Shown piece by piece: positions 35,337-39,517 of a stretch of 63,342 bases of DNA. Every line of letters starts with the position of its first letter. Positions within the stretch are counted from its first letter, which is position 1. The position numbers and the translations under genes are program-made. Below the pieces are notes generated by a model that ran no database searches, was not told the origin of the DNA, and saw only the letters and a program-made list of their open reading frames with translations. The stretch covers positions 1-63,342 of the forward strand of contig CANBKJ010000007.1 in NCBI GenBank assembly GCA_947369165.1. Direction: 5' to 3'. The stretch comes from an uncultured Lachnoclostridium sp. Lineage in GTDB: Bacteria > Bacillota > Clostridia > Lachnospirales > Lachnospiraceae.

Positions 35337-35358
35337 ATTATACTGAGGAGGGAGCAGT

Positions 35359-35685
35359 ATGGAAAAACGATTGAAACATTATTTAGAATATTACCGGAGT
35401 GCATCGGAGGGGGAGATAGATATCGGTGAAAGGAAAAGATTTCGCAGGGAAATGCTGGTTCAGATACAGTTTTTCCAGCATGAGAGGCTCATCCATCTGA
35501 TCGTGACGGTGCTGTTTGCGCTGCTGGCGGTCATCACGATTCTGGCAGGCTTGATCATACAGGAACCGGCAGTACTTCTTCTGTGCCTGATGTTTTTTGT
35601 ACTTCTGATCCCCTACATACGGCATTATTACATTTTGGAAAACGGGGTGCAGAAGCTGTATGAGTATTATGACCGGATTGGATGA
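35359..35685 (+). CDS. small membrane protein
   Basis: 108 residues with two transmembrane helices (about 47-67, LIVTVLFALLAVITILAGLI, and 70-88, AVLLLCLMFFVLLIPYI) between basic and aromatic flanks (ending LYEYYDRIG). GGAGGGAGC precedes the ATG. No family recognised. Confidence 0.65.
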   Translation: MEKRLKHYLEYYRSASEGEIDIGERKRFRREMLVQIQFFQHERLIHLIVTVLFALLAVITILAGLIIQEPAVLLLCLMFFVLLIPYIRHYYILENGVQKLYEYYDRIG

Positions 35686-35757
35686 TTGGCGACGATGAGA
35701 TTCTAAGGCATGCGCCAGGTGGAAGATATTAGAATGTCTTAAAGTACCTGCCTTAAT

Positions 35758-35786
35758 TTGACAGTAGAAATTCCTTGTACTATCAT
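35758..35786 (+). promoter_or_regulatory. sigma-A promoter of the DUF6273 surface gene
   Basis: TTGACA (35758-35763), a 17-bp spacer and TATCAT (35781-35786). The predicted leader is about 110 nt and contains several hairpins. Confidence 0.7.
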
Positions 35787-35800
35787 GAGAAAGGAAAGAA

Positions 35801-35906
35801 TAAGGAGGAAAATCCTAGCTCTGCTTGCAGAGCTTGTCTCGCCATGGAGGGCATGCCATGCAGGCATGGCAGGGATTTTGCTTCGCAAAACAAGGAGGAT
35901 TAGCAT
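35801..35906 (+). promoter_or_regulatory. hairpin-string leader between two Shine-Dalgarno sites
   Basis: An AAGGAGG at about 35801 is followed by stems GCTCTGC-TT-GCAGAGC, TGCCATG-CAGG-CATGGCA and TTTTGC-TTC-GCAAAA, then a second AAGGAGG (about 35890) that serves the ATG at 35907. The arrangement looks like repeat DNA inserted into a ribosome-binding region. A similar layout occurs before the antiporter gene. Confidence 0.5.
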
Positions 35907-37892
35907 ATGAAGACAATGAGTAAACGACCACTGGCGCTGCTTCTCATCAGTGCCCTGCTGGCAGGGCTTCTGCCCCTGGGAACAGGGACAAAGAGCCGGG
36001 CGGTGGAGCAGCCCGCACTCCGGAATCCACGTATTCTCAAGACCACCCAGGAGATACCGCCGGAATCCGCCGGGAAGAAAGAGCTGAAAAATCCAACCAC
36101 AGACAGTAGCGGCATCACCACCTGGGACTGTATCTGGTTTGGGAACTACTGGCAGGAAGACACCAACGGGGACGGTAAAGCAGATAAAAATGACACCAAA
36201 ACCCCCATCAAGTGGAGAGTGCTGTCGGTGGAGGGTGACGATGCCTTTCTGGTGGCAGATAAGAACTTGGATTGCCAGAAATATAACGTTACGTCGGAAG
36301 ATGTCACCTGGGAGACCTGCACGATGCGCAGCTGGCTGAACGGCTACGGAGCAGAGGCGAACAAGGAAGGGAAGGATTACAGTGACAATAATTTCCTGAC
36401 TCATGCATTTTCGGCGGGGGAGCGGTCGGCGATCAAGCCGACAAATGTAGTGAATAATGATAACCCGGAGTATGGAACAGAGGGCGGAAACGATACATCC
36501 GACAAGGTGTATCTGCTGTCCATCGAAGAAGTAACAAATCCGGCATATGGGTTTACGTCTTCTACGGATAGTACCGCCACAAGGGTGGCAGTAAACACGG
36601 CCTATATGGCAGATGGAGGAGATATGGGGAGTGCTGGAAACCCTGATGCTTGGTGGCTCCGGTCGCCCGGTTTCTCTAGTAATAACGCTTCTAACGTGCA
36701 CGGCAATGGGGATGTCGACAGGACTGGCGACCGTGTCTACTTCAATTTTAGCGTCGCCCGACCGGCTTTGCATTTGAATCTATCATCCGATTCAAGTTGG
36801 TCCTATGCCGGTACTGTTCCCTCGGATGATGTGGCTGAATGGGACTGCGTCTGGTTCGGGAACTACTGGCAGGAGGATACCAACGGGGACGGCAAAGCGG
36901 ATAAAAACGATGCAAAAACCCCGATTAAATGGCGGGTGCTGTCGGTGGAGGGCGACGATGCCTTTCTGGTGGCGGATAAGAACCTGGACTGCCAGACGTA
37001 CAATGAAACAAATACAGACGCCACCTGGGAGATTTGCACGATGCGTAGCTGGCTGAACGGCTACGGAGCGGAAGCGAACCAAGCAGAAAAGGACTACAGC
37101 GGAACCGGCTTTCTGGACAATGCCTTTACGTCAGAGGAACGTGAGGCAATTAAGCCGACAAATGTAGTGAATAATGATAACCCGGAATATGGTACGGAGG
37201 GCGGAAGCGATACTACGGACAAGGTGTATCTGCTGTCCATCGAAGAAGTAACAAATCCGGCATATGGGTTTACGTCTTCTATTAGTAGTACCGCCACAAG
37301 GGTGGCAGTAAAAACGGCCTATACGGCAGCCGGAGGAGATATGGGGAGTGCTGGAAACGCGAATGACTGTTGGCTCCGGTCGCCCGGTAGCGTTAGTCAT
37401 GACGCTTCCTACGTGAGCAACGTTGGCTATGTCCAAAGGTGTGGCAGCGATGTCCGAATCAAGTATTACGCCGTCCGTCCGGCTTTGCATTTAAATCTTA
37501 AGGCATCGTCAGATGCCATATCTGCTTCAAGCTGGTCATATGCCGGTACCGTCACCTCAGATGGCAAAGTGGAAGAGACAGGAGCACCGAAACCGGCCGT
37601 TACCCCGTCGCCGGAACCGGGAAATACCCAGAAGCCCCAGGCGACCTCAGAGCCAGGAACGCCATCCCAGCCGGGGAACACGGAAAAACCGTCTGTGGTC
37701 CCGACAGTTACTCCGTCGCCGGAACCGGGCAGCATCGGAAAAGTATCCGCCCTGAAACTGAAACAGAAGAAGGGTACCGTGACAGCTTCCTGGAAGAAAA
37801 CCGCCGGAGTGGGAGGCTACCAGATCTGTTACAGCACCTCCAGGAAATGGAAGAAAAAAAACAGAAGCCGGTTTTCAAAAACAAAACGGTAA
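35907..37892 (+). CDS. secreted protein with two DUF6273 domains; probable DGR variable protein
   Basis: 661 residues as annotated. A signal peptide (about 1-32) precedes two tandem homologous units of about 230 residues, each running from WDC(I/V)WFGNYWQEDTNGDG to RPALHLNL. This is the DUF6273, C-type-lectin-like fold. The last 45 residues of each unit, starting at WLRSPG, differ sharply while the rest is nearly identical; the differences fall at codon positions 1 and 2 of AAC/AAT-like codons, as expected of diversity-generating retroelement variable regions. A Pro/Ser/Thr-rich linker (PAVTPSPEPGNTQKP) and the start of a fibronectin type III domain follow. The frame is broken in the Fn3 domain by an A8 tract; the rest lies at 37893-38011. 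No reverse transcriptase or template repeat is seen nearby. A ligand-binding or adhesion role is inferred. Confidence 0.85.
   Translation: MKTMSKRPLALLLISALLAGLLPLGTGTKSRAVEQPALRNPRILKTTQEIPPESAGKKELKNPTTDSSGITTWDCIWFGNYWQEDTNGDGKADKNDTKTPIKWRVLSVEGDDAFLVADKNLDCQKYNVTSEDVTWETCTMRSWLNGYGAEANKEGKDYSDNNFLTHAFSAGERSAIKPTNVVNNDNPEYGTEGGNDTSDKVYLLSIEEVTNPAYGFTSSTDSTATRVAVNTAYMADGGDMGSAGNPDAWWLRSPGFSSNNASNVHGNGDVDRTGDRVYFNFSVARPALHLNLSSDSSWSYAGTVPSDDVAEWDCVWFGNYWQEDTNGDGKADKNDAKTPIKWRVLSVEGDDAFLVADKNLDCQTYNETNTDATWEICTMRSWLNGYGAEANQAEKDYSGTGFLDNAFTSEEREAIKPTNVVNNDNPEYGTEGGSDTTDKVYLLSIEEVTNPAYGFTSSISSTATRVAVKTAYTAAGGDMGSAGNANDCWLRSPGSVSHDASYVSNVGYVQRCGSDVRIKYYAVRPALHLNLKASSDAISASSWSYAGTVTSDGKVEETGAPKPAVTPSPEPGNTQKPQATSEPGTPSQPGNTEKPSVVPTVTPSPEPGSIGKVSALKLKQKKGTVTASWKKTAGVGGYQICYSTSRKWKKKNRSRFSKTKR
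36651..36773 (+). other. candidate DGR variable region 1
   Basis: From TGGTGGCTCC to CGGCTTTGCAT at the C-terminal end of the first DUF6273 unit. Compared with region 2 over 29 aligned codons, 20 differ in amino acid, 2 are synonymous and 7 identical; in 17 of the 20 the third base is the same. Constant codons are A-poor (GCT, GTG, GTC, GGC). Confidence 0.75.
37368..37490 (+). other. candidate DGR variable region 2
   Basis: The counterpart in the second DUF6273 unit, from TGTTGGCTCC to CGGCTTTGCAT, with the same length as region 1. The bases after it (CCGTCCGTCCGGCTTTGC) are GC-rich and conserved with region 1, which fits an initiation-of-mutagenic-homing type end. Confidence 0.75.
37854..37861 (+). 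other. A8 homopolymer frameshift site in the Fn3 domain
   Basis: Eight A residues inside the codon run for KWKKK. One extra A restores the fibronectin type III domain: the new frame reads KQKPVFKNKTVIKKL and YYFRVRAYRLEGKK. Slipped-strand phase variation, a fixed mutation, or a sequencing error are all possible. Confidence 0.7.
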
Positions 37893-38011
37893 TCAAAAAA
37901 CTCAAAAAGAAAAAGACCTATTATTTCCGCGTCCGGGCTTACCGTCTGGAAGGAAAAAAGCAGGTCTATGGGTCATGGAGCGGCACGAAGAAGATCAAGA
38001 TTAAGAAGTAG
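37893..38011 (+). pseudogene. out-of-frame 3' end of the DUF6273/Fn3 protein
   Basis: Continuing from the A8 tract in the shifted frame, this segment encodes the last strands of the Fn3 domain (TYYFRVRAYRLEGKKQVYG, WSGTKKIKIKK) and ends at TAG 38009-38011. It has no start or ribosome-binding site of its own and is the natural C-terminus of the gene before it. Confidence 0.75.
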
Positions 38012-38254: not shown

Positions 38255-38711
38255 AATAAAAAGCATTACTATTCTTTTATCTATGAAAATCTTTTATTCT
38301 CAAAGAACGTCAATTCTTAATTCCTAAAATCAGAAAAAAGCAGGGAGGTTGTTTGAAAATGAGAGAAAGCAGCCCTCTGCAGGACGGAGGGTAGATGAAA
38401 AAAAGAGAAGAAATACCAACAGATTCGATTCCGGGAACGCCAGCACAACGAAACTACAAAGACACTGTATTCCGGATGCTGTACCGGGACAAGTCAGAGC
38501 TTCTTGAGCTGTACAATGCAGTAAACGGTACTCAATACACAGACCCGGAGGAACTGGAGGCGGCAGGACTGGAAAACGCTGTCTATATGTCGGTAAAAAA
38601 CGACGTATCCTGTGTGGTGGACCTGCGGCTGAACCTGTACGAGCACCAGTCTACGGTAAATCCCAATATGCCGCTGCGCGACCTGTTCTACATAGCAAAA
38701 CTGTATGAGAA

Positions 38712-38790
38712 AGGTGCGGCTGAGAACCGCGCACCTCGAAAGAATTGCCTTCGGCTATTCTTTAGCTCCGCAAATGAGAACTTTTTCTAG
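38712..38790. repeat. hairpin-string insert in the Rpn-type gene
   Basis: Contains GGTGCGG...CCGCGCACC and AAAGAAT-GCC-TTC-GGC-ATTCTTT stem-loops and introduces a stop. It separates codons that are continuous in intact relatives, so it is an insertion. Boundaries are approximate. Confidence 0.5.
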
Positions 38791-39023
38791 CAGATGAGAA
38801 AATGATCCAGAAAGAAAAGAGAGACCTGTATTCCGGGAAAAGAATCCAGATACCGTCGCCCCGCTTTGTTGTATTTTACAACGGAACAGAGGAACAGCCG
38901 GAGAGGAAGATCCTGCGCCTGTCAGACTCCTTTTACCGGCAGACGGAAGAAGCAAATCTGGAGCTGACAGTACTATGCATAGAAGAAGGGATCCTGGTAC
39001 AACGAATATTAAGTAATTGGCAG

Positions 39024-39129
39024 TTTGACTTGCCTATTTTCCTGATAGCTTTACTCCCCAAGCCTCGACGTAGCCACCGCTACGTCGAGGCTTGGGGAGT
39101 AAATTCTCAGAAAAATATTCTGCGTCAAA
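39024..39129. repeat. 106-bp palindromic element with a 25-bp perfect stem
   Basis: Outer ends TTTGAC (39024) and GTCAAA (39129) flank imperfect arms, and the centre is a perfect 25-bp inverted repeat with a 4-nt CACC loop, including TTTACTCCCCAAGCC and GGCTTGGGGAGTAAA. No ORF. It interrupts the Rpn-type gene and is probably a non-autonomous MITE-like insertion. Confidence 0.75.
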
Positions 39130-39517
39130 CTATCCAAAACTTAATTCCGTTGTACTGGAAGAATTCTTGAGAGCCAACCGGGCGGAGGTGATCCAGATGA
39201 GCATATTTGAATATGATGAAGAACTGCATATGGCGACGGTGAAGGAAGAAGGCCGGAAAGAGGGCAGGAATGAAGGCAGGGAAGAAGGGGCTGCCTGGGA
39301 ACGCCGCAGATTGCTGGCCGGCATGCTGGAGAGAGGCTTGTCGCCGGAAGAGATCCGTGATTTGACCGGAGAGCCGGTAGAGACCATACGGGAAGCAGTG
39401 TTCTGGCCGGATAATTAGCATAAAACATCTTATGGTGAAAAGCCGGGTACTCAGGCAGCAGCATATTTGATGAAAGTTTCCCAAAAGCGACACGATACGC
39501 CGGATTCTGGATAATCC

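Follow-up and report, generated by a model that had tools for sequence, protein, structure and literature searches.

The DNA analysed here is a stretch of 63,342 nucleotides from an uncultured Lachnoclostridium sp. (the window). It contains a gene whose product carries two similar copies of one domain, and the two copies differ mainly in a short block near the end of each. A preliminary description took the two blocks for variable regions (VRs) of a diversity-generating retroelement (DGR) whose reverse transcriptase (RT) and A-rich template repeat (TR) lie elsewhere in the genome. The question is whether a DGR wrote these blocks, and whether one still does. The features under discussion are collected in Table 1.

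Table 1. Features in and around the two-VR gene of the window (coordinates count from the first letter of the window).
Feature	Coordinates	Strand	Basis
Small upstream gene, left synteny marker (ORF 35359-35685)	35347..35685	+	91% identity to the G023 gene on the left side of avd
Site of avd-TR-RT in G023; here a short stretch with a hairpin	35686..35906	+	Alignment to G023
Target ORF, 661 aa	35907..37892	+	ORF list and profile search, PF19789 E=7e-53 over 2 stretches
DUF6273 domain 1	36123..36782	+	PF19789 profile; model resembles C-type-lectin folds
VR-A, 29 codons	36672..36758	+	VR-A versus VR-B codon alignment; comparison with the G023 TR
DUF6273 domain 2	36840..37499	+	PF19789 profile
VR-B, 29 codons	37389..37475	+	VR-A versus VR-B codon alignment; comparison with the G023 TR
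Fn3-like C-terminal region, 2 frames, split after an A-run near 37856	37740..37981	+	Alignment to relatives
Rpn-like gene in pieces, right synteny marker	38335..39412	+	Directly right of the target in G023

The target ORF begins with an N-terminus that, judged by eye, resembles a signal peptide, and continues with two DUF6273 domains, a Pro/Thr-rich linker and the start of an Fn3-like region. It scored 179.4 bits against the DUF6273 profile (PF19789), for which the curated cut-off is 23.5. Among solved structures the closest relative of its DUF6273 domain was PDB 9qa6, an N-terminal domain from an IgA-cleaving peptidase; the available part of PMC12402451 gives it the name DUF6273. The variable blocks cover a strand pair in the predicted structure model. 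The product is apparently secreted, and the signal peptide and the lectin-like fold lead us to guess at a ligand outside the cell. The single span of 36651-37490 that was originally proposed for the variable part holds both VRs, but it also takes in the conserved part of domain 2. Similarly, the Fn3 domain that had been assigned to this protein is present as an Fn3-like start but is not intact in the ORF, where the frame breaks near 37856. No fn3 match was found in the window ORF with Pfam at E up to 1; the same profile scored the target of G016, a genome of the same genus, above its cut-off (28.4 bits) and that of G023, another, just below it (23.0 vs 25). A run of eight A precedes the frame break (37856-37981), and a paralogue on contig C49 of the same genome is a single open frame there. 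Decay, phase variation and an error in the draft could each account for the break.

Across the 29 aligned codons after WLRSPG, VR-A and VR-B differed in amino acid at 20 codons and silently at 2 and were identical at 7, and the third base was unchanged in 17 of the 20 replaced codons (changed in 3/20), exactly the counts given in the preliminary description. Differences fell at codon positions 1, 2 and 3 in the numbers 16, 13 and 5. Over the 183 codons upstream, the corresponding numbers between domains 1 and 2 were 17, 20 and 53, and the third base was also changed in 19 of 31 replaced codons. The VRs thus differed from their upstream flank both in codon position (Fisher's exact test p = 1.4e-5) and in third-base changes among replaced codons (p = 0.0014). 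Elsewhere in the same genome, the second DUF6273 gene of contig C49 holds two similar copies of the block, C and D. When A, B, C and D were compared together, 13 of the first 20 codons varied in amino acid, with the third base varying in 1 of these 13, as against 29 of 49 amino-acid-variable codons in the flank.

A DGR template was sought among relatives, in a set of 39 genomes of the genus (own genome included). RVT_1 was found in 17 of these genomes, and 34 of the 39 gave matches to the window protein, some of which spanned only the Fn3-like end. We scanned 20 RT neighbourhoods, out of 35 RVT_1 matches listed, for repeats that mismatch at the adenines of one copy. Clear A-biased TR/VR pairs were seen in 8 of the 20 loci (L086, L087, L094, L095, L100, L101, L102 and L104). 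Repeats in L091 and L097 were not counted, having non-A mismatches roughly equal to or above those at A, nor was that in L089 (14 A and 16 non-A mismatches); in L086 the repeats formed by the conserved parts of its two domains were also left out. Nothing was found in the 9 remaining loci. The pairs in L094, L095, L100, L101, L102 and L104, which lie near other RTs of the genus, are DGR-like, with 12-18 A and 0-1 other mismatches, and the VR of L095 sits in a stretch matching the G023 target at 31% identity.

Two of the DGR loci bear directly on the window. In G016 we found a TR/VR pair with 18 A and 1 non-A mismatch, an RT ORF of 393 aa and an Avd scoring above Pfam's bAvd cut-off. In G023 the RT adjoins a 1654-aa DUF6273 protein whose gene is syntenic to the window gene. 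The TR of G023 is about 90 bases long and has 2 VRs within that single target, with 19 and 14 A mismatches and none elsewhere (0/58 non-A positions in each), so the earlier claim of two VRs in one protein has a counterpart in this relative.

We therefore used the G023 TR as an outside template for the VRs of the window genome. Over the first 20 codons, VRs A-D were variable at 25 of the 27 columns where the TR has an adenine and at 4 of the 33 other columns (p = 1.8e-10). For VR-A and VR-B alone the counts were 20/27 and 2/33 (p = 4.7e-8), and with the G016 TR over 31 codons they were 35/40 and 12/53 (p = 2.9e-10). Individually, VR-A (90-base match from 36643) differed from the G023 TR at 16/32 template adenines and 6/58 other positions, and VR-B (90-base match from 37360) at 18/32 and 8/58. 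At the TR-A positions the VRs of the window genome held 55 A, 24 G, 18 T and 11 C, in proportions like those of the cis VRs of G023 (26, 12, 11 and 5). The third bases of the G023 VRs were more alike than those of their flank (p = 0.0025), a signature of overwriting; the same comparison in the six VR pairs of the window genome was not significant (p 0.11 to 0.79). Because the variable columns coincide with the adenines of the G023 TR, sequence evidence, as far as it can go, shows VR-A and VR-B to be DGR-written variable regions, and the adenine-specific substitution proposed at the outset is confirmed.

The own genome is a 2.8 Mb draft of 123 contigs (92.6% complete) and the one genome of its species in this analysis. 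No RT was detected in it with the RVT_1 profile or with the G016 RT as query, which has matches in 13 of the 39 genus genomes. Within the window, tblastn gave no match to the Avd of G016 or G023 at E up to 1e-4. DNA searches of the draft for a TR, with VR-A and the G016 TR as queries, returned only the VRs and weak short matches. A TR pattern, which fits the TRs of G023, G016, G035 and L184 at 0, 0, 2 and 3 mismatches, had 0 matches in the draft at up to 3 mismatches. The 14-base anchor suggested earlier for this search matched 16 places at up to 2 mismatches, and a reversed control pattern 10; four of the 16 were the VRs (0, 0, 1 and 2 mismatches), and the other 12 include one on C36 with 1 mismatch. 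Two matches on C26 to the VR-A query were rejected, as they lie within a tandem repeat at the contig end; this repeat (G000 C26, L014) is GC-rich and runs off the contig. The RT and template expected elsewhere in the genome were thus not recovered by profile, RT query, template DNA or pattern in a 92.6%-complete draft, and on account of that completeness their absence is strong, not final.

Comparison with G023 suggests where such machinery may once have stood. The order in G023 is small gene, avd, TR, RT, target, Rpn-like gene, and the window gene lies in the same order without avd-TR-RT. The interval between the small gene and the target is 221 bases in the window; its left part aligns to sequence before the G023 avd and its right part to the G023 sequence that immediately precedes the target start. 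Between the two lies a hairpin that is predicted to be strong (approximately 35777-35893). No second copy of 35780-35905 was found in the own genome at E up to 0.001. The G023 cassette itself looks defective: the frame of avd is broken, and the TR, which ends early, continues into an RT truncated at its N-terminus. These defects may be real or an assembly fault. The G023 copy of the Rpn-like gene gave a weak match to TIGR01784, below cut-off. The Rpn-like gene is in several pieces in the window and in G015, and in one piece in G023 and G027.

We then read the same site in eight further genomes, four of them close by their upstream nucleotidyltransferase-like protein (86-97% identity). In G027 the site holds an avd remnant, followed by a VR-like sequence with the left flank of the TR and the 3' end of the target (L114 2341-3128). 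This sequence differs from the TR at 1/58 non-A and 17/32 A positions, and the arrangement looks like the scar that a deletion between TR and VR would leave. In G022 only the 3' end of the target is at the site, and a two-domain relative with an Rpn-like gene is on another contig. The nearest genome, G015, shares the left junction with the hairpin, and the target is replaced there by a gene that, by eye, encodes an IS110-type transposase; the hairpin in G015 borders this gene. The G036 site had neither target nor Rpn-like gene, and the more distant G010, G029, G014 and G016 gave no avd, RT, target or Rpn match at the site. From this synteny series we infer that avd-TR-RT once stood at the locus in the window's lineage and was then lost. 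As the four more distant relatives are without the target at this site, the cassette would have been gained within the close group, of which G023 alone keeps most of it. In a tree of 19 domains, with 2 of 16 inner branches starred, domains 1 and 2 of the window did not pair with domains 1 and 2 of G023. The target locus may itself be decaying, since in this assembly neither its Fn3 end nor the neighbouring Rpn-like gene is intact.

The age of the VRs was judged from their mismatches outside template adenines. Against the G023 TR, the four VRs A, B, C and D had 6, 8, 7 and 9 mismatches at the 58 non-A positions, and five remote VRs of G023 itself had 5, 7, 9, 9 and 13, where its two cis VRs had none; five further G023 loci had no VR within the mismatch limit. 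Some of the non-A mismatches were common to the four own VRs and some were private. As no own TR is known, part of these 6-9 mismatches would be template differences common to the four VRs. The first DUF6273 gene of C49 was 96.8% identical to its G015 orthologue over 2560 bases, and its VRs had 0 and 2 differing positions, so that they have not been rewritten since the split from G015. This test is weak for the window gene because the VRs of the C49 gene fit neither TR within the mismatch limit, and that gene may have left DGR control earlier. An orthologue of the window gene was not found in G015.

DGRs of this kind appear to reach beyond their own locus. One VR on another contig of G016 differs from the TR at 1/84 non-A and 23/42 A positions, while the other G016 VRs had 5, 13, 18, 25, 25 and 29 non-A mismatches and one fetched locus was without a VR. 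Of these, the two with 1 and 5 of 84 non-A mismatches (L228 1470 and L229 1997), both on other G016 contigs, are likely trans targets. This suggests that the family writes remote targets, whose VRs age afterwards; a family acting in trans would not need a cassette at the locus. In G035, where an Avd match accompanies a 391-aa RT, the VRs fitted the TR next to that RT poorly, with 13, 14, 16, 26 and 29 mismatches at 90 non-A positions (five other fetched loci held no VR); the proximity of an RT to a target is thus no proof that rewriting was recent. At 65% identity or more, RTs of the family were found in 3 of the 39 genus genomes: G016, G023 and G035, the last with two copies. In a GTDB scan 190 stretches encoded a relative of the DUF6273 query, the best of which were kept as 79 loci, and an RT match lay within the fetched DNA of 6 of these 79, many of the contigs being short. 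The RT family is rarer than its targets.

We consider it probable that both VRs were written by a DGR and are now orphaned and frozen, making the product a fixed two-site binding protein from a former DGR. In outline, an RT would have reverse-transcribed an A-rich template RNA and made its errors at the adenines, as the enzymology of known DGRs leads one to expect, and the cDNA would have replaced the 3' part of each DUF6273 domain. About 20 codons would have come to differ between the copies in this way, with most third bases and the A-free codons left intact. Template, RT and Avd would then have been lost, leaving the two VRs as fixed binding patches. That the VRs are orphaned is most likely because the template, RT and Avd that stand before the homologous G023 target were not found here.

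Of the alternatives, the one that survives best is a DGR that is still active in trans, with RT, Avd and TR on the unassembled part of the genome (about 7%) and both VRs still being diversified. The incompleteness of the draft leaves room for it, the remote VR of G016 that fits its TR is a precedent, and family RTs do occur in the genus (3/39 genomes). However, the nearest genome, G015 (82% complete), gave no RT match, the own VRs look aged, with private non-A changes, and the cassette site at the locus is empty; we therefore regard continued activity as unlikely. Far less probable is an origin without any DGR, in which the variation of a strand pair and its loops came from positive selection or from recombination between DUF6273 paralogues. 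Many genus genomes do hold several DUF6273 copies, and in the model the blocks span a strand pair. But selection acting on amino acids would give no reason for third bases to be preserved, as they are in the VRs and not upstream, and columns vary where a template from another species has its adenines. Equally improbable is an assembly or binning artefact, in which the draft dropped or collapsed a cassette present in the living strain: TR and VRs are near-repeats apt to break assemblies, and the frames of the Fn3 end and Rpn-like gene are broken, but a single 63-kb contig carries both flanks of the gene, arranged as in G023, and the G015 assembly, a separate one, has the same left junction and hairpin.

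A phage origin was also considered and set aside, with no confirmed DUF6273 relative in the set viral_contigs. This set had two RTs at 37 and 41% identity and five contigs with TR-like pattern matches. Among phage and plasmid records, one of each had a DUF6273 match, at 27% and 37% identity respectively. For the G016 RT, the RT of phage nd12 was one of the two closest in phage records, at 47.7% identity.

The nearest published systems, as far as the available parts of these papers describe them, are the tentaclins, proteins with DUF6273 and Fn3/Ig-like domains diversified by DGRs of phages nd4 and nd12 (PMC10743442). Their features, which the window gene appears to share, are a DUF6273 domain resembling C-type lectins, a VR on a beta-hairpin and Ig-like domains behind it. 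They differ in being phage receptor-binding proteins with a VR named in the singular, whereas the window gene is chromosomal and has two VRs, and no cassette was found with it. In the Faecalibacterium prophage DGR targets the VR likewise lies at the C-terminus of DUF6273, but these are prophage genes of another genus (PMC11792537, available part). The locus on G023:C33, found in this analysis, resembles the window in its synteny, its two-VR DUF6273 target and its TR/VR mismatches at A only; it differs by its frameshifted avd, early-stopping TR, N-truncated RT and about 960 aa between the domains, none of which the window gene has.

Several VRs per target, action in trans and missing parts link the window to systems in other bacteria with other target families, again going by the available text of the reports. 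Thiohalocapsa PB-PSB1 has multi-VR targets, trans action and incomplete loci, and eight of its nine DGR loci were shown to be diversified in nature (PMC10907252). Among multi-VR DGRs, 31 of 271 hold their VRs in one ORF (PMC6642488), and Marichromatium has three VRs within one ORF (PMC3521204). Treponema denticola variable protein 1 (PDB 2y3c) and Mtd P3c (PDB 1yu1) were also listed among the closest known systems. As these excerpts have it, DUF6273 as a DGR target, with its lectin-like fold and Fn3/Ig-like domains behind, is already published for phages (PMC10743442, PMC11792537), as are several VRs per target, trans action and disrupted loci (PMC6642488, PMC3521204, PMC10907252). Among the open-licence papers listed in our searches we saw no report of chromosomal DUF6273 DGRs in this genus, nor of a loss series like the one described here. 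The series of losses at one site is the newer part.

Tentatively, and with rather less confidence than in the orphaned state of the window VRs, the DGRs of this genus can be read as short-lived seeders. Acting both in cis and in trans, they would write VRs into a large number of DUF6273 genes and then be lost, in part by recombination between the template and a VR. What remains would be a fixed, inherited repertoire of lectin-like binding domains, found more widely than the DGRs themselves. According to the available part of a large DGR survey, remote targets, whose VR does not adjoin an RT, would escape it (PMC8144416). Here a target was recognised without an RT, with the template of a relative used as a ruler, and close species compared at one site seem to represent different stages of loss. 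Should it be common for VRs to outlast the DGR that wrote them, the influence of DGRs on bacterial surface proteins would extend to genomes that no longer contain one, and active repertoires could be told apart from frozen ones.
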